This document shows positions 15,707 to 36,560 of a stretch of DNA of 64,000 bases, piece after piece. Positions within the stretch are counted from its first letter, which is position 1, and every line of letters begins with the position of its first letter. The translations under genes and the position numbers were made by a program. This DNA is from Desulfuromonadaceae bacterium (GTDB taxonomy: Bacteria > Desulfobacterota > Desulfuromonadia > Geobacterales > Pseudopelobacteraceae), in assembly GCA_028687585.1 (NCBI GenBank), contig JAQTZV010000007.1, positions 124,001 to 188,000 on the forward strand, in the 5' to 3' direction. Under the pieces are notes generated by a model. It saw only the letters and a program-made list of their open reading frames with translations. It had not been told where the DNA came from and did not search any database.

Positions 15707-15765
15707 CTGCTTCTTCCTCCTTTTATTGTAAATACAGGCGATTTGCCCGGTGATACGTATGGTTA

Positions 15766-16788: not shown

Positions 16789-16817
16789 GATCTGGCACTC
16801 CTTTTATTCGATATTGT

Positions 16818-17213
16818 TCAGTGGCTGCAGTTGCAGCCGCCTTCACCGGAGCTGCAGCGCCCTTCAAGGTGGCTCTGAAGCGGGGACAGTTCCGGCAGTG
16901 CGCCGCTTTGAAACAGCGCCACGTTGTCAGCAACCGATGCGGAGTCGGCCTGATGAACGGTGAAACCGCACATATTCATGATCCGGAGCGAATCGTCGCC
17001 GATGCCGCCGACAACGATCCCGTCCATCTGTTGCCCCGTAAGGGCACTGAACGGATTGCATCCGGCATACGGATTGTCCCGGTCACAATTGGTGATGGTG
17101 CTGCTTTGGCGGCTCTCCGTATCGATGATCACAAAGAGCGGAGCCGAGGCGAAATGGCCGTAAATCTCACTTGCCATTCCTTCGTTAGTGATGGCGGGAA
17201 AACATATTTTCAT
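16818..17213 (-). CDS. NifX/NifB-C-terminal-like dinitrogenase cofactor-family protein
   Basis: This is a 131-aa protein that begins MKICFPAITNEGMASEIYGH and contains GIVVGGIGDDSLRIMNMCG, the fold pattern of the NifX/NafY/NifB-C-terminal family that binds Fe-Mo cofactor precursors. The C-terminal tail CSSGEGGCNCSH is rich in Cys and His and may hold a metal. No nitrogenase genes are in the window. Together with the neighbouring MoeA-like gene, this suggests a carrier or scaffold for Mo or an Fe-S/Mo cluster used by the Mo hydroxylase (inference). It starts 4 bp after the preceding mini-gene stops. Confidence 0.82.
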   Translation of the reverse strand: MKICFPAITNEGMASEIYGHFASAPLFVIIDTESRQSSTITNCDRDNPYAGCNPFSALTGQQMDGIVVGGIGDDSLRIMNMCGFTVHQADSASVADNVALFQSGALPELSPLQSHLEGRCSSGEGGCNCSH

Positions 17214-19726: not shown

Positions 19727-21148
19727 CTACCGTTTTAATGCTATGCTGAGGCTGGAGACACCGGAAGTGTCGGTATTTGACATAACAAGCATCTCTTTAA
19801 AATAGGACAGTTTCCCGAAAAAAGTTGGATCCGCGGCATTGCTGAGGCTTCCGTCCGCATTCACTGCCAGGTTGAAACCGGCTGGCAGCAAAACGTTGCC
19901 GTCGCTGTCAGCAAAGGATGAATAGCCCGCAGCACCGGAAGCATTGATTGTAATGGTTCCTGATGCCGTCAATGGCGTACTTGAACTCTTGAGAAGGTGG
20001 AAGCCGTAGGTGCCTTCCAGGTCAGCCGGGCTGAATGTATTGGGATCACTGGCGATGGTGTTTACCAGCTGATAAATCCGTAAAATGTATCGGGGGCGTG
20101 CTCCGCTGGTGTCCGTAGCGGTTCCGATTATTACCGATTTGTCGGCAGACATGACCCCGCTATCGATCACTACTGTCGGTTGTGGCAAAGCGCCGGCCAG
20201 ACTTTCCGTCACCATGCCGTCTTCAGATATGTTTATTATGCTGGCTTTATCAGCCGGTTTGACAGGATTTGACGGTGCAGTAAACGCGCTGTATTGAACC
20301 TTTTGGTCTCTGCCCATTTGGCCCGCTGCAAATTCCCACTCCTCGCCTGGTCCGCTTGAAATCTGATTGTAGACAAAGCGCCGCCCTCCGCCGCCACTGC
20401 TTCCGAAACCCTGAATATCACCGGCATTGGTGAATATAACGCCTGGAATCTGTTTCTGTAATATGACCAGTTTATGATTGGTGCCACCCGGAGCTGCATT
20501 GGCAACGATAAATTTCCTGTTTGTCGCCATAATTCCTTGAAGCCCCGAATTAGCATCGTGAATTTCGCCGGTAGTATTGAGGAACAATGACCGGAACAGA
20601 TCAGCCGGTGGCACGGTTTCACCGGCACTATTGCGGAACGAGCTGAACGTGACCGCTCCGGCGCTGTCAACGACACATTTCCCGCGCATCCATCCGGCGC
20701 CCGCACCAGAGACCAGAATATTAAAGTTCCAGGCGCCTTCCAGGTCTCCCTGAACAAAGGCGCCGGACAGTGCTGGTACTGCCGATACCTCGTTTGACTC
20801 GGCGCTTTCGCTGCCGGAATTAACCGCAGTGATAACAAAATAATAGGTGGTGTTGTTCGTCAGGCCGCTTTGTATATACGATGTACTGACGACCGTGGCG
20901 GCTTTGTTTCCGTTAGACTTTGAAACGCCCGGTGACGTTGCGTAGTAAATGGTATATGCCGAGGCATTTGCTGCTGCCGGCCAAGTGAGTGAAATCTGTC
21001 CGTTCTCAGCCGTTGCCGCAAGGCCGACAGGTTGCTCCGCTGCTCCGGGACTGTACCGCCACGGCGAATCGCCGCTGCAGGCAGCGAGCATCAGGCAGAG
21101 AAACATAGCAGGGAAAACCGTTACATACTGTCGCCACAAACATTTCAT
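19727..21148 (-). CDS. Fibronectin type III domain lipoprotein
   Basis: This is a 473-aa exported protein. The preferred start is ATG 21148, eight bases after GGAGAT; an ATG two codons upstream is too close to it. A signal peptide ends in a lipobox (LCLMLAACSGD). One fibronectin type III domain follows (PVGLAATAENGQISLTWPAA to NEVSAVPA), then two related copies of a beta-rich module beginning DLEGAWNFNILVSG and DLEGTYGFHLLKSS, each with a FSSFRNS/YSSFADS element. It is the last gene of the ECF/TonB block, 25 bp after the receptor. It may be a surface-exposed ligand or substrate-capture protein; no enzyme motif is visible. Confidence 0.8.
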   Translation of the reverse strand: MKCLWRQYVTVFPAMFLCLMLAACSGDSPWRYSPGAAEQPVGLAATAENGQISLTWPAAANASAYTIYYATSPGVSKSNGNKAATVVSTSYIQSGLTNNTTYYFVITAVNSGSESAESNEVSAVPALSGAFVQGDLEGAWNFNILVSGAGAGWMRGKCVVDSAGAVTFSSFRNSAGETVPPADLFRSLFLNTTGEIHDANSGLQGIMATNRKFIVANAAPGGTNHKLVILQKQIPGVIFTNAGDIQGFGSSGGGGRRFVYNQISSGPGEEWEFAAGQMGRDQKVQYSAFTAPSNPVKPADKASIINISEDGMVTESLAGALPQPTVVIDSGVMSADKSVIIGTATDTSGARPRYILRIYQLVNTIASDPNTFSPADLEGTYGFHLLKSSSTPLTASGTITINASGAAGYSSFADSDGNVLLPAGFNLAVNADGSLSNAADPTFFGKLSYFKEMLVMSNTDTSGVSSLSIALKR

Positions 21149-21173
21149 AGTCATATCTCCAGAAATTATCTCT

Positions 21174-23165
21174 CTACATCCGGAACTCGACGCCGCCGTA
21201 AAAAAAGCGTCCCGCCCGCGGAATCCCGTAGCTCGTCTCGTAGTTTTCATCAAGGAGGTTGTCAACTCCGAGATAGAGGGTAACCGTGTTGTTCACTAAT
21301 TTCTGACTCAGTTTTATATTGAGCAGTGTGTAGTCGTTCAATTTAGCCTTCTGCATGGGAGTGACGTTGTTTTTTGTATAAAAATACTGGTTTCCAACAT
21401 ACCGGAGTGAAACATATGACGAAAATCCGGAATCGAAGTCGTACTTTCCCTCCAGCGCAGCTTTGTCGCCGGGGGTATATTGCTGTTCGTCTCTTCCCAC
21501 CCGCGACCTGTCTTCGGAGTAGAGATGGGCATACGAGGCGCGCAGCAGGAGATTCTTTAAGCAGCGCGTATCAGTGGACAGCTCAACCCCGGCGAAGCGA
21601 ACCTCCGCCAGATTGGTGTTTCTGCTGGTAGACTGATCATTCTGGATAAGATTCTCTGCAATCGTATAAAATCCGGTAAGGCTGACACTGCTGTTTCGGG
21701 GCAGTTTCTGCTCCATTCCGATCTCGTAGGTGAAGGAACGTTCTGGCGACAGGCGCGGATTACCCTTGGAGAGATCGTACAGATCACCAAGCGATGGAAA
21801 ACGGACGCCCCGTTTGAAAGATGCTTTCAAGCGGGTCTCTACTGCAAGGTCATAAGCGACTCCGGCCAAAAGGCTATAGTCATCCGCTCTCTGGTCGTCG
21901 CGACTCTGCAGGTAATGACCATAGCCCGCAACAAGTGCCAACCCCGGCAGCGGCGACAGTTCGTATTCAACGGCACCTGAGTAAATTCCGAGAGACTTGT
22001 CCGCTTCAAGCGGAGAGAATCTGTTTGCCGCCGAAGTTATAACTCCGCTGTTCTCCCAATGGTCCTCTTCGGCAGCCAGGGAGAAACTGAGTACGCCGGA
22101 GCTGCCCATTTCGTACCGTGGCTGAAGGGCTATCCCTTTGACCGAGGTTATGACCCGTTCCTGAAATGATCCGGCGACAAGGTTGAAGGAGTTGAGTCTG
22201 CTGTTGTCATACTGGTTTACCTGCTCTTCCGACCGGTTGAAAAAAGCCCTTCCTCTGAGAGTCAACTGGCCGGTCACGGCGTAATCTGCTGCTATCTGCG
22301 CCGAGCCACCAGAATAATCGTCAACCCTGGTATACTTTGGCGGATTGGCAAAGGGATCGAACGGATCGTTAATCGCGCTGGAGGGTTTACCGAAAGAGCC
22401 CTGGCTGTAACTGAGGGTGACTCCAAGGGACAGATCCTTGTTTGGAGTGAAACCGATACTGCTGAACACCGTGTTCTTTTCGCTGTCGCTGTTTGTCCGG
22501 TAACCGGCACCCTGTTCAGACGTTGCTTTGAAACCGTTGGAAAGCGGATAGCCATCAACTTTCGATGCGCTGCCGCTCAGGAAATAGTTAAATTTGTCCG
22601 TAGCGCCGGAAAGAGTTCCCCGGCCATGGTACGGTGCGTGATCACCCGTTTCCCCGGCTATCATACCCTGCATGCCGGCCACTCCCTTTTTCGTAATGAT
22701 ATTAATGACACCGCCGAGCCCCCCCTGCCCGTAAAGCACTGAACTGGCGCCTGAGGTAAGCTTGATCTCCGCAATGTTTTCCGTAGGGATAATCGTCGGA
22801 TCAAATTGCTGGTCCAAGGCCGAATTCATCGGAATACCATCCAAAAGGAGGAGTACATGCCGGGTGCGAAACCCGCGGATGTCGATGCGCGGTATCCCTT
22901 CGCCGCCTGTCCTGATATTGACGCCGGGCAGCAGCATAATGGCCTGGTCAAGAGTCCTGGCTCCGCTGCTTCGGATATCCTCAGCGGTGACGGTGTGAAC
23001 CGTTTCAGTGACCTCAACCCCGTCGCCCTGACCGGAGACGACCACCTCACCGAGGGTGTATACGCCCGCTCTGTCCGATGGTTCTGCCCCATAAACATGT
23101 TGTTGGAGCAGGCAGAGGCAGCAGATGCCGGAAAATAGGACGTTTTGCAGTGCTTTTTGCTTCAT
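21174..23165 (-). CDS. TonB-dependent outer-membrane receptor
   Basis: This is a 663-aa BtuB/FepA-type receptor. It has a signal peptide (MKQKALQNVLFSGICCLCLL..YGA), a TonB-box-like YTLGEVVVSG, a plug domain with RTLDQAIMLLPGVNIRTGGE, IDIRGFRTRHVLLLLDGIPM and VLYGQGGLGGVINIITKKG, and a 22-strand barrel with the C-terminal pattern LYLGVDNLLDENYETSYG. The chain ends FRM rather than the common aromatic residue. ATG 23165 with GGGTG upstream is used. With TonB and an ECF transporter in the same block it should bring a scarce solute across the outer membrane; the ligand is not shown by the sequence, but the upstream Moco-type riboswitch points to Mo, W or a pterin. Confidence 0.92.
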   Translation of the reverse strand: MKQKALQNVLFSGICCLCLLQQHVYGAEPSDRAGVYTLGEVVVSGQGDGVEVTETVHTVTAEDIRSSGARTLDQAIMLLPGVNIRTGGEGIPRIDIRGFRTRHVLLLLDGIPMNSALDQQFDPTIIPTENIAEIKLTSGASSVLYGQGGLGGVINIITKKGVAGMQGMIAGETGDHAPYHGRGTLSGATDKFNYFLSGSASKVDGYPLSNGFKATSEQGAGYRTNSDSEKNTVFSSIGFTPNKDLSLGVTLSYSQGSFGKPSSAINDPFDPFANPPKYTRVDDYSGGSAQIAADYAVTGQLTLRGRAFFNRSEEQVNQYDNSRLNSFNLVAGSFQERVITSVKGIALQPRYEMGSSGVLSFSLAAEEDHWENSGVITSAANRFSPLEADKSLGIYSGAVEYELSPLPGLALVAGYGHYLQSRDDQRADDYSLLAGVAYDLAVETRLKASFKRGVRFPSLGDLYDLSKGNPRLSPERSFTYEIGMEQKLPRNSSVSLTGFYTIAENLIQNDQSTSRNTNLAEVRFAGVELSTDTRCLKNLLLRASYAHLYSEDRSRVGRDEQQYTPGDKAALEGKYDFDSGFSSYVSLRYVGNQYFYTKNNVTPMQKAKLNDYTLLNIKLSQKLVNNTVTLYLGVDNLLDENYETSYGIPRAGRFFYGGVEFRM

Positions 23166-23193
23166 GAGTTGCACCCGGATTTATAAAAGTAAT

Positions 23194-23215
23194 CCCCCCG
23201 GTTTGAGCCGGGGGG
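23194..23215 (-). promoter_or_regulatory. Strong intergenic hairpin before the TonB receptor
   Basis: An 8-bp perfect stem (CCCCCCGG / CCGGGGGG) with a 6-nt loop stands between the small FnIII lipoprotein stop and the receptor start. The minus strand has TTACTTTTAT after it, not a clear T-run, so it may set mRNA stability or partial termination to lower receptor output relative to upstream genes. Confidence 0.5.
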
Positions 23216-23230
23216 AGATCTCAACATCTA

Positions 23231-23929
23231 TCAGAGAACAGTAACAGCCTGGGCATTTGTCTGTGTTCCGCTTTCTCCTGCGGCATTCTCTGCGGTTATC
23301 AGGACATAGTAGGTTGCACCACTGGAAAGGCCGGTCACGGTAACAGATGCCGTGGCGCTGGTCGAAGGGGCCGAGGCAAGAACTTCAGCTTTCGTCGGGA
23401 CAGAACTTGCCTGCAGGTGGTAAATATTGTATGAGGTGGCGCCCGGTACCGCATTCCAGGTAACGGTTATTTGGCCTGAAACAGAGTTGTCTATCACACG
23501 TCCGTTCGGACTTGCCGGTGGCTGAGGAGCGGCTGCGGGTGTAGCCGTTTTTTCGCTCGATACGCTGCTTTCACCGCCTGCATTTACTGCGGTGACGACA
23601 AAAAAGTATGGGGTGCCGTTCGTCAGTCCAGGTACCACCTTCGGACTTGTTGCCCCGGTGACTTTAGTCACGGCGCTTGTGGTGACTCCTGCTGCTGTTC
23701 CGTAATAGATATTGTAGGAAGTGGCGCCGGTCACCGCACTCCAGGAAACCGTCACCTGGCTGTCTCCTCCGGAAGCAGCGATTCCGGCCGGTTTTGCAGG
23801 AATTGCCGGAGTCGGTGACGGCAGCGGCGTTGAGTCGCTGCCCCCTCCTCCGCACCCCGAACATGCCAGTGTCAGTACCGCCATACTCACGACCATCAGC
23901 CACCCAATCAATTGTTTGTTCCGTTTCAT
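23231..23929 (-). CDS. Small lipoprotein with two fibronectin type III domains
   Basis: This is a 232-aa exported protein with a signal peptide and lipobox-like end (SMAVLTLACSGCGGGG), a Pro-rich linker, and two FnIII repeats. The first runs PAGIAASGGDSQVTVSWSAV to SSEKTATPA and the second SVSGQITVTWNAVPGATSYN to the end. Both carry the GATSYNIY signature strand. The domains resemble the one in the 473-aa lipoprotein at the end of the block, pointing to duplication. It lies between tonB and the receptor gene. A cell-surface binding or scaffold role is likely; there is no catalytic motif. Confidence 0.78.
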   Translation of the reverse strand: MKRNKQLIGWLMVVSMAVLTLACSGCGGGGSDSTPLPSPTPAIPAKPAGIAASGGDSQVTVSWSAVTGATSYNIYYGTAAGVTTSAVTKVTGATSPKVVPGLTNGTPYFFVVTAVNAGGESSVSSEKTATPAAAPQPPASPNGRVIDNSVSGQITVTWNAVPGATSYNIYHLQASSVPTKAEVLASAPSTSATASVTVTGLSSGATYYVLITAENAAGESGTQTNAQAVTVL

Positions 23930-23971
23930 GCTGCTCTCCTTTTCAGTTTTAATATTCGGACCAAGCCGAGA

Positions 23972-24748
23972 TCAATCTCTTGCGAGAGTGAATGTCATGG
24001 TAATAGTAAATGTTTCTTCAGCTCCCCCGAACGCGTCCGGCAGTGGCGGAAACGTGCCCACGGAGGCGATGGCGCGGGTCGCCGCCTCATCAAGAAACGC
24101 GTGGCCGCATGACGAGATTGTCTCGACATGTCTGAGCGAGCCGGTGCGGTCAATAATAAAGCGGCGCTGGCAACTCCCCTCCCGGCGGGATTTCCGCGCC
24201 GCCAGCGGATATTCCTTGTGAGCCTCGATAAGCCGTTTCAGGAGAGCCTGGTAGGCGGCGCGGCGTGACAAAGACGTTGACTCTGCTGAAGAAGCGGCAC
24301 TGCTGCCGGAAGGTACTCCTACAGCAGAAGCTGTTTTTTTGCCGGAGGATGTTTCAGAATCTGTCCCGATTCGCGATACTCCGGCGCCACCGCCGCTTCT
24401 CAGCCCGGAAGTTACCGAAGATCCCGTAGAGACAGACTTTGGTGCGTTGGTCACTACTGGAGCAATTGGCGCTACCGGGCTCACTGCCGAAGGAACCTGT
24501 GCCGGTAACGGCGCCGGTACGGTCTTCGCACCATGCGTCAATGTCTGCAGTAACTCTTGCTGCAGTTCCCCCTGCGGAGGAGCCGTTACCTGGTACTTCC
24601 CGGTTTTTTTCTGTTCAGTAACATACTCGACAGTCATGGCTGATACCGCATGGTCTGGATGGTACTCCCGCTTTACGAAAACAGTGACAGCTTCTATGAC
24701 AGCCAGATGAAGCAGCAGAGATACGAGAATAACGGAAGCAAATCGCAT
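23972..24748 (-). CDS. tonB: TonB-family energy-transducing protein
   Basis: This is a 258-aa protein with one N-terminal membrane helix (FASVILVSLLLHLAVIEAVT), a Ser/Gly/Ala/Pro-rich periplasmic linker and a C-terminal TonB domain (YQALLKRLIEAHKEYPLAAR, then GSCQRRFIIDRTGSLRHVET). ATG 24748 has GGAGC eight bases upstream and is preferred over the GTG at 24772 that overlaps the S-component gene. It would couple the inner-membrane proton motive force to the receptor two genes downstream. No exbB/exbD is present in the window, so those must be supplied from elsewhere. Confidence 0.85.
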   Translation of the reverse strand: MRFASVILVSLLLHLAVIEAVTVFVKREYHPDHAVSAMTVEYVTEQKKTGKYQVTAPPQGELQQELLQTLTHGAKTVPAPLPAQVPSAVSPVAPIAPVVTNAPKSVSTGSSVTSGLRSGGGAGVSRIGTDSETSSGKKTASAVGVPSGSSAASSAESTSLSRRAAYQALLKRLIEAHKEYPLAARKSRREGSCQRRFIIDRTGSLRHVETISSCGHAFLDEAATRAIASVGTFPPLPDAFGGAEETFTITMTFTLARD

Positions 24749-24768
24749 TATTTCAGCTCCGCCGGTGT

Positions 24769-25350
24769 TCACCGCGTATCATCCGCCCCTTGGTCGATGA
24801 GGCCGTTGCGCCGCAGTCTGCGGACGATTGACGGCACTGCAAGGGCACTGAGTCCGGCGTAAAAGGCAAATAAGGATGCGGTTATGATCGTTTTCTGCAG
24901 GATGATCTCCCCCTCCATGCCGCTCAGCCATTCAATCCAGGTGTCAGACAGCGCACGTACGGCGGCGGACACGGCGCCGACCAGTACACAGGCAACCATG
25001 CTGTTCACAAAATTGGGAAAGAAATAACCGGCAACATCTACAAGCAGCGCCGGGAGGAGAAACTTGACGAATACCACCGGTCCCTTGGTCCCCATGCCGA
25101 GAAGAAAGCTCGCCAGGCTGACGATCAGCCCTACGAGGGTGGCTGAACCGATCTTCGGCACGCATCCCCGCGCCAGAAGAAAAAAGAACATGGTGAAGAA
25201 CATGACGTGACCGGGAAGATGGAGATGGAGGCGGAGTCCGGCCCGCGCCAGGATAATAAACGTGGCACAGAAACCGAGGAAGATTCCCTCCCGTAAGGTG
25301 AAACGGCGCCAGAGAAACTTCCGTTCGTTCATATCGTTCATATCGTTCAT
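24769..25350 (-). CDS. ECF transporter substrate-binding (S) component, substrate unknown
   Basis: This is a 193-aa integral membrane protein with about six hydrophobic segments and no similarity that I can tie to a known vitamin S component. After a repeated start (MNDMNDMNE) it has a His-rich turn, LRLHLHLPGH, at the end of the first helix, then FFLLARG and GSATLVGLIVSLASFLLGMG. Size and position directly after the T component make an S component the best reading. The His cluster could contact an anion or metal complex (inference). Three in-frame ATGs in a 9-bp repeat leave the exact start open. Confidence 0.72.
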   Translation of the reverse strand: MNDMNDMNERKFLWRRFTLREGIFLGFCATFIILARAGLRLHLHLPGHVMFFTMFFFLLARGCVPKIGSATLVGLIVSLASFLLGMGTKGPVVFVKFLLPALLVDVAGYFFPNFVNSMVACVLVGAVSAAVRALSDTWIEWLSGMEGEIILQKTIITASLFAFYAGLSALAVPSIVRRLRRNGLIDQGADDTR

Positions 25351-25351
25351 A

Positions 25352-26158
25352 TCAGTCCCTTATGTTTATTCGGTTCATGTCGCCACATGGCTGCAACAGT
25401 GACGGGGTAATTGAACACTGTTTCCCGGATTCCGGGGACAATGGTTCGGTATGGAGGGCTGCATCAAAATAAGTACGCTGTTCACGTGTGCCGAATTCGC
25501 GAGCCTCAGCCGACAAGGAGACATCTTCGGCGGTTTTGAGAGCGCGAACCATGAGCGGCAGCAGCAGGCAGTGGAACAGATCTCCCCAGTTACGCGGGTC
25601 AAGCAGTTGTCGGGGGAGAAGGCGCGCCCCGCGCAACCGTTGCGCCGTCATGATTTCATCCAGCTCACGGAAAAAAAACGGCATGAACCTTATACTTACA
25701 AAGACCAGGAAGGAGATACGATACGGAACGACGCGACGAAGCCCCCGCATCATATCGCCGGTTTTTGTGGTGCGCAGGAGTACCGCCCCCGGTATGTAAA
25801 ACAGGATGACCTGCACGGATGTCCGGATTCCGGGCCAGAGCCCTTTGGACTGGCCGATTTTCAGACAGTAGAGGCCGATGATGATCACGGCCTGGAATAC
25901 GAAAAACCTGGTATCACGCCACAGATCGAAAGGTGTCAACCGGGCCGAAAAGTAGTAGAGGAGAGTCACGGCGACAAGTGCCAGCAGTTCCAAGGGGGTC
26001 CGCACCCCGATGGCGAGCGCACTCAGCAGAGTGCAGATGGCGATCTTCCACCCGGCGCCAAGGCGATGCACCGGCGAGTCGTGAGTCATGTACCGGCAGA
26101 CAGAGCTGCCTGATCGGAGCAATCTGTACCCCGGTTTTTTACCGCCCGGTTTCGTCAA
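25352..26158 (-). CDS. ecfT: ECF transporter transmembrane (T) component (EcfT/CbiQ-like)
   Basis: This is a 268-aa membrane protein with the EcfT pattern: SPVHRLGAGWKIAICTLLSA at the first helix, several further helices, and the two Ala-Arg-Gly-type coupling motifs that touch the ATPases (TAQRLRGARLL and SLSAEAREFG). The TTG at 26158 has GGGGGG upstream and overlaps the ATPase gene by 20 bp; an ATG at 26089 (MTHDSPVHRLG) is nearer the usual family start but has no clear ribosome site. It joins the S component to the fused ATPase. Confidence 0.88.
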   Translation of the reverse strand: MTKPGGKKPGYRLLRSGSSVCRYMTHDSPVHRLGAGWKIAICTLLSALAIGVRTPLELLALVAVTLLYYFSARLTPFDLWRDTRFFVFQAVIIIGLYCLKIGQSKGLWPGIRTSVQVILFYIPGAVLLRTTKTGDMMRGLRRVVPYRISFLVFVSIRFMPFFFRELDEIMTAQRLRGARLLPRQLLDPRNWGDLFHCLLLPLMVRALKTAEDVSLSAEAREFGTREQRTYFDAALHTEPLSPESGKQCSITPSLLQPCGDMNRINIRD

Positions 26159-27533
26159 GTTGCCCCCCGTCCAGTTTCAGTGTGCGATCTGCCCAGGAAC
26201 GATCAGGCAGTTCATCGTGAGATGCGATGACAATCGTGGTTCCATATCTGCCGGGCATTTCCGCCAGGATGTTCAACAGAGCCAGCCGTTGCGGAAAATC
26301 GAGGCCGGCAAATGGCTCATCAAGCAACAGAACTTCCGGTTGGGGAGCGACCACCGTAGCAAGGGCTACGCGGTGCTGCTCCCCGAAGCTGAGCGTAAGC
26401 GGCGTCCGATCGGCAAGATGGGCGATGCCGCAGAGGCTGAGCGCTTCCGCTACAGCCCGGGCTGTTTCCAGGCTGGGGGCGCTCATTCGTTCCGGAGTAA
26501 ACGCCACCTCATCATAGACACTCTCGGCAAATAAATGCCGTGATGGATTCTGGAACATTATGCCGACCTTCCCGGGGAGATGCACCGGACGGGGGTTGGC
26601 AATGCCGGCAAGCGCTACTCTCCCTGAATCCGGCGTTTCCAGGCCGACCATACAGCGCAACAGGCTCGACTTTCCGGCGCCGTTTCTGCCGAACAGATGT
26701 ATCCGCTCACCCCGCATAACTTTAAGGTTCACCTGCTGCAACACCGCACCGGTTTCCGGGTAGGAGAGGCTGACGTCACACAGATCAATGGCTGCCGAAG
26801 TGTCACATACTGCTGCATTCTGCGATGTGACGGCGATTTTCGGTTCGTAGCGCCCAGCCTCCGGCACGGTTGCGGTCGCGGCGCCGACTCTGCCGCCTGC
26901 AATGGGTAAATAGCGGTCAATAATGCTCGTAAAGGGTCGTGGATCATGCTCCGCCATGATGATGGTATAGCCGCAATTCTTGAATCCGGCTAAAAGTTCA
27001 CAAAGGTCTTTCTTTCCGATGCTGTCCAATTGCGAGGTGGGTTCATCGAGCAGCAGCAGTGACGGATTCATTGACAGCACAGAAGCTATCGTCAGTCGCT
27101 GTTTCTGGCCGGCCGAAAATTGCTCAACATGGCGTGTTTCATAGCCGGCAAGCCCCACTGCCTGCAGCGAACTTTGTATCCGCAGGGCGATTTCCTCCGG
27201 CGGTACGCAGAGATTTTCAGGCCCGAAAGCAACCTCTTCGGCAACGGTCGTACAGAGTATGTGCGACTCGGCATTCTGGAACACGAGTCCGATCGGTGTA
27301 GATGAACCGTCATCGACTGACGGCACAGATAATTTGATTGTCTCTCTATAGCTGCTGCCACGCAAAAGCCCTTTTATAGCGAGGAGAAGGGTCGTCTTGC
27401 CGCAGCCGGAATCGCCGGTCAGGCATACACACTCACCGGCCCGTATTGCGCAGGATACATCCATCAGCGCCGCGGTTGTCGATCCGGGATAGCTGTAATT
27501 GAGGCCATCGATTTTCAGAATATCACTGGCCAT
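26139..27533 (-). CDS. ECF transporter ATPase, two ABC domains fused
   Basis: This is a 464-aa protein with two complete ABC modules. The first has Walker A GDSGCGKTTL, signature EQFSAGQKQRL and Walker B LLLLDEPTSQLD; the second has GRNGAGKSSLL, a divergent signature LTLSFGEQHRV and LLLDEPFAGLD. This is the fused EcfA-EcfA' form. The second signature lacks the usual GGQ, so the two sites may differ in activity. It powers the T/S pair that follows. Its start lies 50 bp after the small secreted protein. Confidence 0.92.
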   Translation of the reverse strand: MASDILKIDGLNYSYPGSTTAALMDVSCAIRAGECVCLTGDSGCGKTTLLLAIKGLLRGSSYRETIKLSVPSVDDGSSTPIGLVFQNAESHILCTTVAEEVAFGPENLCVPPEEIALRIQSSLQAVGLAGYETRHVEQFSAGQKQRLTIASVLSMNPSLLLLDEPTSQLDSIGKKDLCELLAGFKNCGYTIIMAEHDPRPFTSIIDRYLPIAGGRVGAATATVPEAGRYEPKIAVTSQNAAVCDTSAAIDLCDVSLSYPETGAVLQQVNLKVMRGERIHLFGRNGAGKSSLLRCMVGLETPDSGRVALAGIANPRPVHLPGKVGIMFQNPSRHLFAESVYDEVAFTPERMSAPSLETARAVAEALSLCGIAHLADRTPLTLSFGEQHRVALATVVAPQPEVLLLDEPFAGLDFPQRLALLNILAEMPGRYGTTIVIASHDELPDRSWADRTLKLDGGQLDETGR

Positions 27534-27583
27534 AATATATCAAGCCCAGCTACGACGAAGCAGAGTGCAGGGTGAGAAAACGA

Positions 27584-27928
27584 TCATTCGCCTGTTTTTC
27601 CTATGGAGAATTTCTTGTTTTTCGGCGAGATCGCAGTTGCATTGACAACTTTGCCGGCGGAAACTTTAACATCTAACGTTGATTTCCTTTCGCCATTCCA
27701 GTGATAAATAACCGTTGGCGGTGAAGAACGTTTATCTTCTCCGCTCTTTGTCCCCTCCGTACCAACCATTTTAACCAATAGATCAAACGGCATCATCGGC
27801 GTTAATTTTTCCATAAATCTTCTGTTAAAAACCATGTCAGCAGTTCCCGGTTGACCGGCATATATCTCCTCTGATGCTGCGCATAAAAAAATCACCAAAA
27901 AGGCAAGAGCTGTTATTTTTCTGATCAT
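27584..27928 (-). CDS. Small exported protein of unknown function
   Basis: This is a 114-aa protein from ATG 27928 (GGAGGAAAGC upstream). The first 24 residues are a signal peptide (MIRKITALAFLVIFLCAASE, cleavage after YAG). The mature part has a helix FNRRFMEKLTPMMPFDLLVK and a beta-rich C-terminal half (PTVIYHWNGERKSTLDVKVS, then GKVVNATAI), recalling small periplasmic beta-fold proteins of the BamE/SmpA size class. It starts just after a terminator-like hairpin and before the ECF ATPase. A periplasmic helper for the transport system is possible; no family could be named. Confidence 0.65.
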   Translation of the reverse strand: MIRKITALAFLVIFLCAASEEIYAGQPGTADMVFNRRFMEKLTPMMPFDLLVKMVGTEGTKSGEDKRSSPPTVIYHWNGERKSTLDVKVSAGKVVNATAISPKNKKFSIGKTGE

Positions 27929-27961
27929 GCTTTCCTCCATTCGATAAAATAATTACTGTAA

Positions 27962-28000
27962 AACAGAAAAAGGGGTCCCCTGAATACGAAGTGACCCCTT
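27962..28000 (-). terminator. Internal terminator-like hairpin
   Basis: On the minus strand AAGGGGTC...GACCCCTT forms an 8-bp stem followed by TTTTTCTG. It lies right after the 70-aa Cys-protein gene and 35 bp before the next gene, which has no room for a clear promoter. It may divide the riboswitch-controlled transcript into a high-expression first part and a lower-expression transporter part. Confidence 0.65.
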
Positions 28001-28014
28001 CCGAGATGCAGTAA

Positions 28015-28227
28015 CTAATTGGTAAACGGCATGTTCTTGCAGCAACTGAACGAAACGGCGGTCCAGCGTCGATAGCGGCAGTTATAACAGGAGAGCAGAT
28101 CGTCGGCGATCTGCTCGTCTTCATCATCTGGATGAAACGTCGCACAGAGCGCCGCAATGCGGGCGGCTCCCTCCCAGCTATTTCTCCCCAGGTCTGCTTC
28201 ATGTTGAATCATTGCGGGCTGTTCCAT
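28015..28227 (-). CDS. 70-aa Cys-containing protein of unknown function
   Basis: This gene starts at the base following the stop of the DDTD-motif protein (TAAATG). The N-terminal half is helical (GRNSWEGAARIAALCATFHP), a DDEDEQIADDLLSCYNCRYRRW segment follows with one CxxC, and CCKNMPF stands near the end. No family was recognised. Its tight coupling to the first riboswitch-controlled gene and the Cys pattern suggest a small metal-binding partner. An attenuator-like hairpin follows directly. Confidence 0.6.
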   Translation of the reverse strand: MEQPAMIQHEADLGRNSWEGAARIAALCATFHPDDEDEQIADDLLSCYNCRYRRWTAVSFSCCKNMPFTN

Positions 28228-28971
28228 TTAATACTTTTTCAGCAGTTGGCGCGAGCAGGTTTGCCAACGGGGTCCGTCCGAAGCTCCTGCCGTTGCAACT
28301 ACCAGCAGAACTGATCGTCCGTCCAGGAGGACCGTCTTTACCTTGTCTCCCAGTCGTACCATATCGAAGTCAGCAACAGCGCTGCCGTCAAGAGAGCGTA
28401 CCTCATCAATCATGTCATGGCCGGCAAGAGCAGCGACGCTGATAATTCCTCCGGGAGCAGAGAAAGAAAGCTGTCCCTTCAGGCGGCCGTCGTTACCGCC
28501 AAGACGCAGGCCTGCTCCGGCAAGTGCGCCGATAACGCCCTGCCCGGTGCCGCCATGCTCGGAAAGGTGCAAACCGAGCTGTTGCGCACGTTCATACGCT
28601 GATTCTTTGGTCAGAACCGATTGCTTTGCCGCTTGGCCAAAGCGGATAAGTTCGCCCGATTCCTGCAGCCGATCAAGAACGGCCACGCAGAGGCCGGGGT
28701 CAGATCCGGGGGCACTCTCCCGTTCCAGAAAATTGGCGGCATATGTGATCACCCTGTCAAGGCACTCCTCTCCGATGTCAGCCGAGAAGCACATGGCGCT
28801 GTTGTGAGAGGTGTAGGGGATGTCGGGGTGAACCAACAACTGGTGCCGGGTGACAAAGCTGCTCTTTCCCCAGCAGTTGCTTTCCAGATCGTAGGCAATT
28901 TGGGACGCCAGAGCGCCGGTGCCGGGGCTTTCGAGGTTGTCTGTGTCGTCGATACTGATCAAAATGCGCAT
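28228..28971 (-). CDS. DDTD-motif protein resembling the N-terminal domain of TiaS (tRNA(Ile2) agmatidine synthetase)
   Basis: This is a 247-aa protein that opens MRILISIDDTDNLESPGTG, the DDTD motif of TiaS-like proteins, and later has EHGGTGQGVIGALAGAGLRL, another nucleotide-handling signature. It is shorter than archaeal TiaS (about 420 aa) and lacks its zinc and OB parts, so tRNA agmatidine synthesis is unlikely; bacterial copies are of unknown function. It is the first gene after a Moco-type riboswitch and terminator, so its level should follow Mo/W cofactor status. ATG 28971 with GGAATT upstream is used rather than a TTG eight codons earlier. Confidence 0.7.
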   Translation of the reverse strand: MRILISIDDTDNLESPGTGALASQIAYDLESNCWGKSSFVTRHQLLVHPDIPYTSHNSAMCFSADIGEECLDRVITYAANFLERESAPGSDPGLCVAVLDRLQESGELIRFGQAAKQSVLTKESAYERAQQLGLHLSEHGGTGQGVIGALAGAGLRLGGNDGRLKGQLSFSAPGGIISVAALAGHDMIDEVRSLDGSAVADFDMVRLGDKVKTVLLDGRSVLLVVATAGASDGPRWQTCSRQLLKKY

Positions 28972-29016
28972 AAAATAATTCCATTTCAGTGACAAGATAG
29001 TGTGCTTCGATGGTAC

Positions 29017-29047
29017 AAAAAAAGGACTCTTTCCAATGAAAGAGTCC
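29017..29047 (-). terminator. Riboswitch expression-platform terminator
   Basis: On the minus strand GGACTCTTT-CATT-GGAAAGAGTCC followed by TTTTTTTGTA is a textbook intrinsic terminator placed between the Moco-type aptamer and the ATG of the DDTD-motif gene. This is the arrangement of a transcription-terminating riboswitch. Confidence 0.88.
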
Positions 29048-29077
29048 CCGGCGAATGAATGAAAAGCATCCGTGTGA

Positions 29078-29175
29078 GATTCTCCTTTTCAAAGGAAGGC
29101 ACCGCTGTTTCCGGCAGTACCCGTAGGCCGCGTTACCATAAGGTTTCCCTGGTAGGTATGACGGCTCGGAGAGGA
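29078..29175 (-). ncRNA. Moco-type (molybdenum/tungsten cofactor) riboswitch aptamer
   Basis: The minus strand carries the Moco-motif landmarks in order: CTCCGAGCCGTCATACC, a short CCAGGGAAACC hairpin arm, TATGGTAACGCGG, CTACGGGTACTGCCGGAAAC, and CCTTCCTTTGAAAAGGAG. The GCCGGAAAC and CCTTTGAAAAGG segments are also found in the two aptamers at 36443-36735, with co-varying changes in the stems, which supports a conserved fold. Placed before the DDTD-motif gene and the ECF/TonB block, it should sense Moco or its tungsten analogue and act through the terminator at 29017-29047. The region from 29176 to 29347 is AT-rich leader or promoter sequence without a gene. Confidence 0.82.
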
Positions 29176-29347
29176 ATAAAATATATTTTTCGGCAGAAAA
29201 GTTTACAGCAAATACCGTACCACCAGCCTAACTGCCTGATCTGCTGATACGCTGCTTTAAAAAAAGCCGCTCAGATAGCGTTAATCGATACTGCAAATAG
29301 GGAAAATGTCCACAGGCACTCAACATACTGTCGCTATTGTCAGCAGT

Positions 29348-29584
29348 TTAACTGTGCCCTTTCTCAACTTCTATCTCTTCATCCTCCTCTTGATGTTTCG
29401 GTCCGCGAGACAGTTCAATCAATTCAGCGCCGACAGATTCGGCGATATGCTTCAACTCGCTCATCCGCAGGTGTTGACCGTAGACCTTGAGATTGAGATC
29501 AGCGACTGCCACCAAGGCATAGCGCGGCTGTTTTGCGCCGTCCTGCATCTTTGTTCTCTGCCGGTAAAAGATTTTTCCTGACAT
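29348..29584 (-). CDS. 78-aa protein of unknown function downstream of the Mo storage gene
   Basis: This is a small soluble protein: MSGKIFYRQRTKMQDGAKQP, then RYALVAVADLNLKVYGQHLR, a helix MSELKHIAESVGAELIEL, and a charged tail. GGGGGTAC precedes the ATG by nine bases. The mixed beta-alpha pattern with a central AVADLNLKVYG strand recalls small regulatory or binding proteins, but no family was recognised. It is the last gene of the tandem-riboswitch operon, 95 bp after the storage-protein gene, so a role in Mo/W handling is an inference from position. Confidence 0.65.
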   Translation of the reverse strand: MSGKIFYRQRTKMQDGAKQPRYALVAVADLNLKVYGQHLRMSELKHIAESVGAELIELSRGPKHQEEDEEIEVEKGHS

Positions 29585-29679: not shown

Positions 29680-30486
29680 TTATGCCCGTATTACGGTACC
29701 GACTTTCTCACCCCGGATTGCCCGTCCAATGTTGCCGCGCTTGTGGCCGTTGACGATTTTAATTTCCTTCACGTTTACTGTATCACGCAGCAGGTGGAGC
29801 ATCTTGCGTTCAAGCACCATATCCTCCATATCCAGTTTGATCAAATCATCGGCAGTGATCTCCTCGATCAATTCAGCTTTCGGGTTGACGTGAGGATCCT
29901 CGGTAAACAACCCGTCGACGTTCTTGACCAGGATGCAGCTCTTTGCGCCGAGAACGTCAGCCATCAGAAGCGCGCCGGTGTCGGTGCGATGCGGAGGGAT
30001 AAGCCCCATTGCCGGCGGATGCTCGAAGAGACCGTACGGAGGCGTACCATGAACGACCGGCAGCAATCCGAGATGAAGCAGGGTCGGCAGATCAAGGAGA
30101 TCACCGGTCTTTATCCGAGATCCGCCCCATTTGGAGAGGAGCAGGGTTACGATTACCGCGTTCTGCTCGCTGATCTTACCCGCCAGTTCAGCGAGGACTC
30201 CGGTCGGCATGCCGAGGTCAATGCCGATGTCGAGGATGTGGCGTACTCTGACCCCGCCGCCGGTGACAACCAGCATTTTGTGCTGCTTCGACAGTTCGCC
30301 GATTTCTTCCATCAGTGGCATAACCACCTCGCGGCCATAGTCAATTGCCCCATGTCCACCAATCTTGACGACATTCAGGTCTGGAACCAGCCTGAGCGTG
30401 GGAGTGTCATTCTGTTGTCGCATAAGCCCTTTACGGACAAGCGTTTCACCTTTGAATTTGTTGTTTACTTCATGTCTATGGGGCAT
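29680..30486 (-). CDS. Molybdenum/tungsten storage protein subunit (amino-acid-kinase fold)
   Basis: This is a 268-aa UMP-kinase-like protein matching MosA/MosB of Azotobacter in length and layout. It has VVKIGGHGAIDYGREVVMPL, MLVVTGGGVRVRHILDIGID, PPYGLFEHPPAMGLIPPHRT, and GALLMADVLGAKSCILVKNVDGLFTEDP. The His-rich, Pro-rich HPPAMGLIPPH loop is where the storage protein differs from true UMP kinase. Family members use ATP to pack molybdate or tungstate clusters in a hexameric cage. Only one subunit gene is present, whereas MoSto is an alpha/beta heterohexamer. ATG 30486 has GGAG seven bases upstream. It follows the oxyanion uptake genes directly. Confidence 0.88.
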   Translation of the reverse strand: MPHRHEVNNKFKGETLVRKGLMRQQNDTPTLRLVPDLNVVKIGGHGAIDYGREVVMPLMEEIGELSKQHKMLVVTGGGVRVRHILDIGIDLGMPTGVLAELAGKISEQNAVIVTLLLSKWGGSRIKTGDLLDLPTLLHLGLLPVVHGTPPYGLFEHPPAMGLIPPHRTDTGALLMADVLGAKSCILVKNVDGLFTEDPHVNPKAELIEEITADDLIKLDMEDMVLERKMLHLLRDTVNVKEIKIVNGHKRGNIGRAIRGEKVGTVIRA

Positions 30487-30526
30487 ACGCACTCTCCTTC
30501 ACCTGTGGGGTATACTGATTCAAGAA

Positions 30527-31624
30527 TCATCCCTTGCGAAACTGATGTACTGAAGTTGCTTTCATTAACGCAAAAACGGTGCCGCCCGCTTTCAGATGCA
30601 GCTCCGAAAGCGACTGATTGGTCACAGCGGCGACCAGCATGAATCCGCAGTCGAGATACACCTTGTTGTACAGGCCAAAAGGAACGATCTTGACAACCGT
30701 GCCTGAATAAACATTGCGGGCGCTGGTCTGCCGGTCAGGGTCGTTGGAGGTTACCACCACATGCTCGGGATGGATACAGAATGTTACGCACTCCCCCGGA
30801 GAACCTTCGCCAAGTATTTCCATTAACTGGGTTCCAATTGTCAGTGAGAGCAGCCCGTTATCCGCTTCTCTGACCGTGCCGGAAAAGACGTTCTCCATAC
30901 CGACGAAGGTTGCGACGAATTCATTTACCGGTTCGCTCATCACATTCGACGGGGCGCCTGACTGGATAATAGTGCCATTCTGCATCACTGCCATACGGTC
31001 AGCCAGTCTGAGCGCCTCTGCCTGATCGTGGGTGGTGATGATTGCTGCCGTGCCTGACTCACGCAGAACATGCTCCAGGTCCTCCGTGAGAGCCTGACGT
31101 GTCGGAGGGTCGAGAGCTACGAACGGTTCGTCCAGTAAAATTACTTCAGGAGCTGTTGCAAAGGCCCGCGCCAGACTGGTGCGCTGCGCTTCTCCACCGG
31201 AGAGCTTGCGCGCCGATCGATCGGCCAGATGGGTTATTCTAAAACGCTCCATACAGACGTCGACCTGTTTGCGGACTTCGTGCCCGGAAACCTTCCTGAT
31301 CTTCAACCCGGCAGCGACATTTTCATACACGGTAGTGTCAAAGAGAAGCGGTTCCTGAAAGACCATGGCGATTTTACGCCGGAAGGCGGTCTCGCCGCCG
31401 TCATAATTGAGCGGTTCGCCCCTGAAGTTGATCTGGCCGGACGAAGGGCGGAGCAGGCACGCCAGGCTGAGCAGCAGGCTCGATTTTCCGGAGCCGTTGG
31501 GGCCGATCAGCGCCATGGTTTCATGCTCATCAAGGGAGAACGACGGGACACGTACGACCTCAACTCCGCCTCGTGCGACAATCAGGTCCCGTACCTCCAA
31601 AAGTGGCGTGGGGCCGCTGCTCAT
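30527..31624 (-). CDS. tupC: Tungstate/molybdate ABC transporter ATPase (TupC/ModC-like)
   Basis: This is a 365-aa ATPase with Walker A GPNGSGKSSL, Q-loop FQEPLLFD, signature KLSGGEAQRTSLARA and Walker B VILLDEPFVALD. A C-terminal TOBE-like domain (YSGTVVKIVPFGLYNKVYLD to FALMKATSV) is the sort that binds oxyanions and regulates transport. ATG 31624 is preferred since the longer frame only reads through the TupA end. A tungstate importer would need a permease; none is encoded before or after it, and the ATG overlaps the stop of a short hydrophobic frame that looks like a permease C-terminus (31621-31695). Confidence 0.88.
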   Translation of the reverse strand: MSSGPTPLLEVRDLIVARGGVEVVRVPSFSLDEHETMALIGPNGSGKSSLLLSLACLLRPSSGQINFRGEPLNYDGGETAFRRKIAMVFQEPLLFDTTVYENVAAGLKIRKVSGHEVRKQVDVCMERFRITHLADRSARKLSGGEAQRTSLARAFATAPEVILLDEPFVALDPPTRQALTEDLEHVLRESGTAAIITTHDQAEALRLADRMAVMQNGTIIQSGAPSNVMSEPVNEFVATFVGMENVFSGTVREADNGLLSLTIGTQLMEILGEGSPGECVTFCIHPEHVVVTSNDPDRQTSARNVYSGTVVKIVPFGLYNKVYLDCGFMLVAAVTNQSLSELHLKAGGTVFALMKATSVHQFRKG

Positions 31625-31695
31625 TGCAGCGACCCCAGTTGCTGCATAATGCCAGAGAAGATCAAAATCATCAGAGTCCCAGTGATTCCGGTTTT
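31621..31695 (-). pseudogene. Possible C-terminal relic of a TupB permease
   Basis: Between the TupA stop and the ATPase start, a frame reads KTGITGTLMILIFSGIMQQL and ends GSLQ with its TGA overlapping the ATPase ATG as ATGA. The hydrophobic run and the ATGA coupling are what the end of a permease gene would look like if the rest had been lost by deletion fused at the tupA 3' end. It is only 24 codons, so chance is a real alternative. Confidence 0.3.
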
Positions 31696-32525
31696 TTACC
31701 GGCATCGGGAAAGAAGAGCGGTGCGCCGAACTTCTCGACGCCAAAAGTACGGATGATATCCTGGGTCTTCTTTGCCACCATGAAATCGGCAAATGCTTTG
31801 CCCCCCTGCTCGTTTACCTTGGGCCACTTGACCGTATTGAGCTCTATCACATGGTAGATGTTGAGCAGTTTACCGTCCCCTTCTACAAGAATTTCGAGGT
31901 TAAGCCCTTTTTTCAGCGCCAGATAGGTCGCGCGGTCCGTCAAGGTATACCCCTTCTTTTCAGCTGCGACATTCAACGTCTGGCCCATGCCGAGACCGGT
32001 CTGCTGATACCATTTCTGCCCTTCCGGGTTCAGTGAAGCGGCTTTCCAGAGCCCTTTCTCTTTTGCATGGGTTCCGGAATTATCTCCACGGGAGGCGAAC
32101 AGAGAACCGCTCTGGGCGATACGCTTCATGGCATCAGCGGCAGTGGCCCCCTTGATTTTGGCCGGATCAGCGGCCGGTCCTATAATGATAAAGTCGTTAT
32201 GCATCACCAGGCGACGGGTAACGCCAAATCCGCCAGCCATAAATTTTTTCTCGGCATCGGGAGAGTGGACCAGCAATACATCGGCTTCTCCTTTCTCCCC
32301 CATTTTCATAGCCTGTCCTGATCCAACCGAAATAGTTTTGACAATGAAACCGCTCTCCTTCTCGAACAGCGGCACGAGTACATCCAGCAGACCGGAATCC
32401 TGGGTGCTGGTGGTGGTTGCCAGGATGACCGTTTTCGAGGCGGCCAGTGCCGGAACAGCAGTAGTCAGCATCATAACGGCTGCACAGAGTAGTAACATAC
32501 GGGAAACAAATCGGAAACTTTTCAT
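31671..32525 (-). CDS. tupA: TupA-like tungstate-binding protein
   Basis: This is a 284-aa periplasmic binding protein with a signal peptide ending ALAAS. The oxyanion motif is TTTSTQDSGLLDVLVPLF, with the TTTS segment known in TupA, plus GSGQAMKMGEKGEADVLLVH and the SRGDNSGTHAKEKGLW motif that holds the ligand arginine. It delivers tungstate (possibly molybdate) to an ABC permease. AAAGGAGTTC stands before the ATG. Its stop lies 46 bp from the ATPase start with no permease gene in between. Confidence 0.9.
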   Translation of the reverse strand: MKSFRFVSRMLLLCAAVMMLTTAVPALAASKTVILATTTSTQDSGLLDVLVPLFEKESGFIVKTISVGSGQAMKMGEKGEADVLLVHSPDAEKKFMAGGFGVTRRLVMHNDFIIIGPAADPAKIKGATAADAMKRIAQSGSLFASRGDNSGTHAKEKGLWKAASLNPEGQKWYQQTGLGMGQTLNVAAEKKGYTLTDRATYLALKKGLNLEILVEGDGKLLNIYHVIELNTVKWPKVNEQGGKAFADFMVAKKTQDIIRTFGVEKFGAPLFFPDAGKKPESLGL

Positions 32526-32552: not shown

Positions 32553-33398
32553 TTATTTTTTGTCATGCTGGGCGTGCCATTCTTTGGAATCGGGAAAAAA
32601 CATTTGGGCGCCAAAGCGGTCAATGCCGAATTCTGCGATGATTTTCTGTCCCTTGGATGGATTGGTGAGCCATGTGACAAAAGCTGCCGAATCCAAACTG
32701 TTGACTTTCGGGTATTTTTTCTGACTGACAGGAATGAGCGAAATGCGGTTCAGCAGCGCTTCATCACCTTCAACGAGGATCTCAAGTTTCAGCTCTTTCT
32801 TTATCGAGAGATAGGTGGCACGATCGATAAAGGTATATGCTCCGGAATTGTTCGCAAAGCGGAGCGTTGCAACATTTCCCTCGTTCCCTTTTTCATACAC
32901 TTTGTACCATGCTCCGGAAGGTTTCAGCCCGGCTTTAGTCCAAAGCTCGCTCTCCGCCACATGGGTGCCCGATTTATCGCCGCGACTGATAAAGGTCCCC
33001 TGTTTTTCAGCAATTTTGCTGAGTGCTGCCGTAGCCGATTTCATGCCGCGAACCCCTGCCGGATCACTGGACGGCCCAACGATGACGAAATCATTGTACA
33101 TGAGAGGGATACGTTCCGTACCGAATCCTGCGGCGACGAACTTCTCCTCCAGTGACTTGGCATGCACCATGACCAGATCAATGCTTCCTTTCTCAGAAAT
33201 TTTGAGGGCCGCTCCGGTTCCGGCGCCAACGTGCCGCACCCGTACACCGGATTCCTTTTCAAACGCATCTTCAAGTGTTGTGACGATACCGGCGTCAATG
33301 GGGCCGATTGTGCTGGCCAGCATGATAAATCCCTTTTCGGCATGAGCTGTTGTCGTGCAGATGCCAAACAGTGCCACTGCTGCGATTAGTCGTTTCAT
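32553..33398 (-). CDS. Divergent TupA-like oxyanion-binding protein
   Basis: This is a 281-aa periplasmic binding protein parallel to the next gene through most of its length (GAGTGAALKISEKGSIDLVM, FISRGDKSGTHVAESELW, YTFIDRATYLSIKKELKLEI). The first motif, however, reads MLASTIGPIDAGI in place of the TTTS-TQDSGLL of TupA, so one of the two oxyanion-contact loops has changed. This may alter ligand choice, for example to a different oxyanion. GGAGGAACAGAG precedes the ATG. It probably arose by duplication. Confidence 0.85.
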   Translation of the reverse strand: MKRLIAAVALFGICTTTAHAEKGFIMLASTIGPIDAGIVTTLEDAFEKESGVRVRHVGAGTGAALKISEKGSIDLVMVHAKSLEEKFVAAGFGTERIPLMYNDFVIVGPSSDPAGVRGMKSATAALSKIAEKQGTFISRGDKSGTHVAESELWTKAGLKPSGAWYKVYEKGNEGNVATLRFANNSGAYTFIDRATYLSIKKELKLEILVEGDEALLNRISLIPVSQKKYPKVNSLDSAAFVTWLTNPSKGQKIIAEFGIDRFGAQMFFPDSKEWHAQHDKK

Positions 33399-36406: not shown

Positions 36407-36442
36407 CAGGCAAACCACTGGTGTGGATAGGCAAGCGACAAG

Positions 36443-36545: not shown

Positions 36546-36560
36546 ATGTGGTGAGGCTTT

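Follow-up and report, generated by a model that had tools for sequence, protein, structure and literature searches.

The 64,000-nt window analysed here (contig JAQTZV010000007.1 of assembly GCA_028687585.1, positions 124,001-188,000; coordinates are window positions unless a locus is named) carries on its minus strand a riboswitch-headed gene block that probably encodes a system for taking up tungsten and/or molybdenum (Mo/W) across both membranes. In reading order, an aptamer of the molybdenum cofactor (Moco) riboswitch class is followed by genes for a 247-aa protein with a DDTD motif, called DDTD below (28228-28971); a small protein with a conserved CxxCRYRRW...C motif (sm70; 28015-28227); a second small protein, with an N-terminus that looked signal-like by eye (sm118; 27584-27940); the A, T and S components of an energy-coupling factor (ECF) transporter (26139-27533, 25352-26158 and 24769-25350, respectively); TonB (23972-24772); a lipoprotein with an Fn3 domain (23231-23929); a TonB-dependent receptor (TBDR; 21174-23174); and a second Fn3-domain lipoprotein (about 19727-21154, with the start placed by eye at the ATG before the lipobox). 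Gaps between these genes ranged from -20 to 74 bases. TonB and the first lipoprotein were assigned by family matches, the lipobox of the latter by eye, and no family was found for sm118. Family searches thus agreed with a preliminary description of this DNA, which had read the same single-strand block, including the fused ECF ATPases, from the letters and open reading frames. Loci, genomes and contigs of relatives are labelled L, G and C, respectively.

The aptamer matched Rfam family RF01055 at 29066-29183 (minus strand) with 67.1 bits, against a gathering score of 36 (E-value 5.7e-14 for the 64 kb; model positions 1-135), and this match encloses the Moco aptamer that had been proposed at 29078-29175. 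The intrinsic terminator proposed along with it was also recognised, as a predicted hairpin with a T run (29017-29049) beginning about 17 bases downstream of the aptamer. The source genome contained 11 RF01055 matches, 10 of them above the cut-off. In five other stretches, judged by eye, the matches stood before aldehyde dehydrogenase and aldehyde:ferredoxin oxidoreductase-like genes, before an operon that includes a molybdopterin oxidoreductase and, below the cut-off, before a formate dehydrogenase.

Homologues of the S component were found in 26 of the 141 genomes of the order to which the source organism belongs. A match to RF01055 above the cut-off was located upstream, on the same strand, of 17 of these 26 homologous ECF systems, versus 3 of the 65 other ECF T components that these genomes encode (within 8 kb upstream of the T component; Fisher 2e-9, kinship ignored; the 17 assumes that the T components on G045:C217 and G064:C122 belong to S components at contig ends). 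The co-occurrence of S-component homologues and Moco motifs, which the preliminary description had suggested tallying, was therefore borne out. The 17 riboswitch-bearing S components formed one clade (support 91/77), within which protein identity fell to 58-59%; that the placement of the riboswitch was kept across this clade argues for Mo/W uptake. The block was also present in named Geomonas strains, and aptamers preceded the ECF genes in 11 of 63 loci of the named-strain set, which overlaps in part with the genomes of the order, so that the two tallies are not independent. No other vitamin riboswitch, which would have spoken against a Moco-controlled system, preceded the homologous blocks among the Rfam matches of 31 loci, the loci of the riboswitch clade having been searched for Moco RNA only. 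Cyclic di-GMP (c-di-GMP) RNAs were observed in L052, L053, L055 and L088; in L055, a c-di-GMP-I riboswitch (4336-4410, minus strand; 57.3 bits) was located between the ECF S component and DDTD.

Immediately upstream of the block, on the same strand, lie genes that point to Mo/W. The product of 29680-30492 is a homologue of the molybdenum storage protein (MoSto), encoded by a single gene and closer to MoSto subunits (192.6 bits for MoSto beta) than to other amino-acid-kinase-fold proteins (51.7 bits for the best uridylate kinase); MoSto is able to hold tungsten, according to passages of PMC6448029. It is accompanied by a small protein, sm78 (29348-29584), and is preceded by a TupC-like ATP-binding cassette (ABC) ATPase of the Tup/Wtp type (30527-31792, the real start probably lying near 31620 by eye; WtpC 274 bits, below the cut-off of 440) and by two TupA-like putative tungstate-binding proteins, at 31671-32525 and 32553-33398. 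TupA was the only NCBIfam family matched by the latter two proteins, with 245.1 and 166.6 bits, respectively, below the curated cut-off of 400. No TupB was seen in the block; the best TupB match in the genome, which is also the only strong one (G000:C47:51274-51942), lies far from the TupA-like and TupC-like genes of the window. Further upstream, a tandem pair of Moco riboswitches (first copy, 36621-36740, 49.2 bits; second copy, 36429-36548, 49.1 bits; both RF01055) heads a same-strand run that leads into the block, so the unit may extend from 36740 to 19727 rather than from 29175 to 19727. That genes for TupA-like and TupC-like proteins and for MoSto share the strand and the RNA class of the block is a second argument for Mo/W uptake.

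A third argument comes from relatives in which the system has no such riboswitch. Mo/W genes or RNAs were found near the ECF genes in four of the nine riboswitch-less systems (L051, L053, L054 and L055), in the form of TupA-like proteins, MoSto, a ModE-type regulator or Moco-II RNA, and we take this recurrence as evidence for the proposed substrate. In L054, whose S component is 48% identical to that of the window, two TupA-like genes, the TBDR and the ECF A, T and S genes formed one run (TupA2-TupA1-TBDR-ECF A-T-S), and the same locus held genes for a ModE-type regulator, MoSto, sm78, DDTD and sm70, together with a Moco-II RNA. This RNA (8384-8429, minus strand; 62.8 bits) stood before DsrM- and DsrK-like genes, followed by DDTD, sm70 and MoSto. 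L053 and L055 each encoded a TupA-like protein between the TBDR and ECF A (76.5 and 57.5 bits, respectively, far under the cut-off of 400), and L051 contained TupA-like, MoSto and sm78 genes.

In one further locus, L160, the place of the ECF genes appears to be occupied by an importer resembling MolBCA, which likewise argues for Mo/W. The order there was TBDR, BtuC-like permease, ATPase, binding protein, DDTD, MoSto and a MoeA-family protein, with two small genes in between. The permease was nearest to HI1471 (MolB), with 232 bits versus 176 for the next match (a margin of 56 bits), and HI1472 (MolA) was the second-best solved match of the binding protein (80.7 bits, compared with 95.7 for 4ovk). 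MolA binds both molybdate and tungstate, as passages of PMC4031551 report. In L171, the neighbours of DDTD and MoSto were WtpA (444 bits against a cut-off of 355), a permease resembling WtpB and, judged by eye, genes for formate dehydrogenase.

By profile search, DDTD was present in all 26 S-component genomes of the order. In a sample of 395 genomes of the phylum, DDTD was found in 32 genomes, the S component in 11, all of which had DDTD (Fisher 1.6e-13), and MoSto in 26, of which 21 had DDTD (Fisher 1.9e-22; kinship is ignored in both tests). In 13 of these 21 genomes, fewer than 900 bases separated DDTD from MoSto. The strict co-occurrence of the S component with DDTD, in the order as in the phylum, and the adjacency of DDTD to MoSto in many genomes form another link to Mo/W. 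Within the phylum sample, DDTD was present in 21 of the 22 genomes with one MoSto gene (the exception being G501) and in none of the four genomes with two (G151, G195, G223 and G493). In G028, G034, G035, G038 and G041, one DDTD gene accompanied the ECF genes under their riboswitch and a second lay within 150 bases of MoSto. Flanks were seen for 20 of the 32 DDTD genomes; ECF parts were encoded in 9 of these and MoSto in 6. In L157, DDTD stood with a three-gene ABC set that by eye resembled that of L160, without ECF or MoSto; L154-L156 had an ABC ATPase match near DDTD and L158 an ATPase match on the opposite strand only. Downstream of DDTD, sm70 followed in many loci. None of the three small proteins sm70, sm78 and sm118 had a usable match in Pfam.

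The predicted structure of DDTD (mean predicted local distance difference test score, pLDDT, 85.2) matched about 160 residues of TiaS with an E-value of about 1e-10, which suggests that the protein contains an ATP-using domain. As candidate identities, TiaS itself was rejected (29.5 bits versus a cut-off of 600, only part of the fold being common), as was methanogenesis marker protein 11 (47.9 bits versus 255.8). From its company, we infer that DDTD acts on Mo/W or on MoSto.

ECF transporters are known to carry vitamins and nickel or cobalt. In the window, the A component contained two ABC_tran stretches, so that its ATPase domains are fused; such paired ATPase domains and a CbiQ-type T component (59.8 bits, cut-off 25), the features by which an ECF transporter is recognised, were both present. 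The S component matched no family above its cut-off; members of its family matched PF09819 ABC_cobalt weakly in 8 of 26 cases (best E-value 4e-4), and the lack of any CbiM match led us to reject a CbiM/NikM-type S component. An AlphaFold2 model built from 26 sequences (pLDDT 78.4) had ECF S components as its best matches in a search of the PDB (5edl, RibU, ThiT and a pantothenate S component), the highest template-modelling (TM) score being 0.66, with a folate S component, and the best E-value 2.8e-3, none reaching 1e-3 or below. By its predicted fold, 24769-25350 is thus an ECF S component. The TBDR had both a plug and a beta-barrel domain (PF07715, 83.4 bits; PF00593, 113.1 bits). BtuB was its nearest solved relative by sequence; identity with the BtuB vitamin B12 receptor was rejected (TonB-B12, 148.4 versus a cut-off of 599.7; BtuB, 130.6 versus 836).

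These affinities, together with the sensing of the cofactor by Moco RNA (passages of PMC2408646), would be consistent with salvage, in which the block imports molybdopterin, Moco, tungsten cofactor or a precursor and the riboswitch closes the uptake of its own ligand: the nearest solved relative of the receptor is a vitamin receptor, and the S fold is closest to vitamin-binding S components. We consider salvage improbable, since the TupA-like proteins of the oxyanion type, MoSto and the MolBCA-like replacement of the ECF genes point to the metal. In addition, the free cofactor is labile. The preliminary description had proposed import of either a Mo/W complex or a molybdopterin-like compound; gene context supports the Mo/W part, and the pterin part fits less well.

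The unity of the block also has to be considered, because a hairpin with a T run lies within it, at about 27962-28000. The preliminary description had noted this hairpin, which is real, and had cautioned that it might partly separate the first genes from the transporter. In six of the 17 riboswitch-clade genomes (G098, G068, G109, G110, G042 and G036), an aptamer was found directly after sm70 and before the ECF genes; at the corresponding site of the window, after sm70, none was found. The hairpin aligned with the stretches around the second terminators of L035, L036, L037 and L039 with scores of 42, 38, 46 and 33, compared with a mean of 19.5 and a maximum of 38 for shuffled L035 stretches, and with 23 and 29 for first-riboswitch stretches. 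It is therefore probably a terminator left over from a second Moco riboswitch, the aptamer having been lost here, and the match with relatives probably answers the caution about separation. The same evidence bears on the idea that two units are stacked, a Mo/W storage unit (Tup, MoSto and DDTD) and an ECF/TBDR unit for an unrelated substrate, sharing a promoter in this clade. An internal terminator and the separation of DDTD from the ECF genes in some genomes would suit such an arrangement; we nevertheless regard it as very unlikely, given that six genomes have an aptamer just before the ECF part, that the hairpin of the window resembles the relic of one, and that every S component found, in the order (26 genomes) as in the phylum sample, came with DDTD in the same genome.

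Several observations weigh against Mo/W uptake, or against particular parts of it. The riboswitch was missing from 9 of the 26 systems, and the 17 that have it, being a single clade, represent one gain that was kept and not 17 independent events. Among the nine riboswitch-less systems, five (L052 and L056-L059) had neither TupA nor MoSto nor a Moco RNA within the stretch seen, L058 and L059 being cut by contig ends and L059 lying outside the Rfam search; MoSto was encoded elsewhere in the genome for four of these five. The TupA-like scores in L053 and L055 were low, as given above. MoSto was found in 14 of the 26 S-component genomes of the order and absent from 12, so storage is no fixed part of the system. 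In 6 of the 25 loci that were uncut before the ECF genes (L052, L053 and L056-L059), DDTD lay outside the stretch, elsewhere in the genome. The sequence of the S component gave nothing usable against solved structures, and no solved S component was matched. Being small, free molybdate and tungstate can pass through porins, which leaves the requirement for a TBDR unaccounted for. In 33 Shewanella loci, the S component was accompanied by DDTD (33), ECF A (33), ECF T (32), the TBDR (32) and sm70 (26); Moco RNA was found in none of the 33 loci, an Rfam element in none of the seven loci searched, and a TupA-like match in only one (L122, at the locus edge). The aldehyde:ferredoxin oxidoreductase (AFOR) genes were found in 5 of 14 Shewanella genomes searched. 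The Shewanella substrate may thus differ from Mo/W.

The Shewanella homologues, nearly devoid of Mo/W neighbours, and the five riboswitch-less loci named above also favour another reading, in which the block imports a different scarce metal or chelate, such as a corrinoid or an iron complex, and the riboswitch serves only to couple its uptake to the demand of Mo/W enzymes. The BtuCD-like relatives, which include vitamin B12 and siderophore importers, would fit this as well. However, Mo/W context recurs in four of the nine loci outside the riboswitch clade, and DDTD is close to MoSto in most phylum-sample genomes with both, so this alternative appears rather unlikely to us. We weighed the five loci without Mo/W neighbours as offset by the presence of DDTD in all 26 genomes and by its second copy beside MoSto, and Mo/W uptake remains the reading that we prefer.

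Within the order of the window, Mo/W with a leaning towards tungsten is the best reading. This leaning is based on the P3-less aptamers, the TupA-like proteins and the copy number of AFOR; the Shewanella loci make us doubt an exclusive role for tungsten. The P3 stem was missing from all 27 aligned aptamers, that of the window included. A motif check matched 24 of the 27, 21 of them at the 12-base spacing of P3-less aptamers and three with wide matches, and missed the other three; the alignment showed no P3 in these six either. According to passages of PMC2408646 (Regulski et al. 2008), P3 is missing in 58 of 176 Moco RNAs, tungsten-cofactor genes are present in 17 of 19 organisms with P3-less Moco RNAs, and such RNAs were proposed to be sensors of the tungsten cofactor. 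The 26 S-component genomes had a median of 5 AFOR copies versus 2 in the other 115, and at least two copies were found in 26 of 26 versus 70 of 115 genomes. The mere presence of AFOR was rejected as a test for tungsten, as it does not discriminate (134 of the 141 genomes of the order) and copy number alone differs; against the leaning, this near-universal presence means that the difference in copy number could reflect ancestry or genome size.

Downstream of all 22 aptamers examined, a script detected a hairpin ahead of a T run, without a shuffled control; in the first copy of L037, the hairpin chosen overlapped the aptamer. For 16 of the 22, with arms picked by eye, pairing between the 3' segment of the aptamer and the 5' arm of the terminator was above the shuffled mean in every case and exceeded 95% of shuffles in 11. 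Two results for the window fit this pairing less well: for its own leader, 6.4% of shuffles were equally good, and its truncated leaders folded instead with the 5' strand of P1 on the GGGGA of the terminator. Both pairings set the terminator against an alternative, and OFF logic is predicted. With cofactor bound, P1 would form, the 5' arm of the terminator would be left free and transcription would stop; under cofactor shortage, that arm would instead be paired with the 3' strand of P1, allowing transcription of the uptake genes.

From gene context, we infer both the substrate and the inward direction of transport. In the scheme that we propose, the TBDR, driven by its own TonB, would bring a scarce Mo/W oxyanion or complex across the outer membrane; the TupA-like proteins and the Fn3 lipoproteins would hold Mo/W species in or at the envelope; the ECF transporter, with an S component not described before, would carry Mo/W into the cell; the adjoining MoSto would store the imported metal; and DDTD, with its TiaS-type ATP-binding fold, would act inside the cell on the metal or its storage. 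A more specific proposal can be made only tentatively, and we hold it to be possible but doubtful in this full form: that the block is the first ECF system for group 6 metals, with its own TBDR and shut off by a tungsten-cofactor riboswitch, and that DDTD is a TiaS-derived, ATP-dependent tungstate/molybdate factor that activates the oxyanion or loads or unloads single-gene MoSto. Its last part draws on the contrast between genomes with one MoSto gene, nearly all of which have DDTD, and those with two, none of which do, and on the second DDTD beside MoSto in five genomes.

Other genes of the window complete the picture of its surroundings. Between the tandem riboswitches and the TupA-like genes, on the same strand, are a gene for a porin-like outer-membrane protein (34949-36265; DESULF_POR1 53.1 bits, below the cut-off of 250) and one for a 483-aa protein with an FG-GAP-like repeat (33410-34861). 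At 12911-17213, a row of genes encodes a molybdopterin-dependent aldehyde oxidoreductase, which scored 1669.9 bits, along with a protein that has a MoeA-like domain and one that resembles NifX. In two loci of relatives, L177 (G063:C420) and L178 (G064:C25), a Moco riboswitch was observed about 4 kb upstream of a different ECF system, which adjoins genes that look like Rnf genes.

Most parts of the system are known as such, namely ECF systems, TBDRs, Moco riboswitches, TupA and MoSto; what appears new is an ECF/TBDR pair tied to Mo/W. Among the literature matches listed, no title dealt with molybdate or tungstate as the substrate of an ECF or TonB system controlled by a Moco riboswitch, in line with the statement of the preliminary description that no ECF/TonB pair for Mo/W was known. 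The TonB half has a partial precedent: passages of the Pelobacter carbinolicus genome paper (PMC3543383) describe ligand-gated TonB-type outer-membrane channels near molybdopterin riboswitches that may transport metals. Passages of PMC13119186 treat, for Geotalea daltonii, a cobalt ECF and effects of Mo/W, and those of PMC2700814 treat molybdenum genes of Geobacter; the present system is named in neither. If our reading is true, the substrates of ECF transporters would come to include a further class of metals, with tungsten or molybdenum taken up through a dedicated outer-membrane receptor, and the outer membrane would be no free passage for Mo/W in some settings. P3-less Moco RNA, tied to the tungsten cofactor by correlation, would gain a natural test operon. 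DDTD is a conserved protein family that accompanies MoSto and Mo/W transporters across a phylum-wide sample.

Compared with known systems, the RNA of the window resembles the Moco riboswitches described before Mo/W transporters in passages of PMC2408646 in its class, its P3-less type, its terminators and its tandem copies; the words "TonB" and "cobalt" have no match in the main text of that paper. MolBCA, the type II molybdate/tungstate ABC importer of Haemophilus influenzae, has its likeness between the TBDR and DDTD in L160, whereas the window uses an ECF transporter, and passages of PMC4031551 make no mention of a TBDR. The two TupA-like proteins and the TupC-like ATPase just upstream, under the same RNA class, recall TupABC and WtpABC; in the block, however, no TupB was seen and the ECF genes form a separate transporter. 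The MoSto homologue is nearest to MoSto beta of Azotobacter vinelandii, where two genes (mosA and mosB) are present, versus one in the window, accompanied by DDTD and sm78. Unlike TiaS, the tRNA(Ile2) agmatidine synthetase, and methanogenesis marker protein 11, DDTD has about 250 residues, scores far below the respective cut-offs and is linked to Mo/W genes. Some of the nickel and cobalt ECF transporters (NikMNQO and CbiMNQO) are paired with TonB-dependent receptors. The block shares with them its ECF A, T and S parts, the supply of a metal and control by cofactor or metal, but differs from them in having no CbiM/NikM match and in its fused ATPases, Moco riboswitch, dedicated TonB, Fn3 lipoproteins and DDTD.

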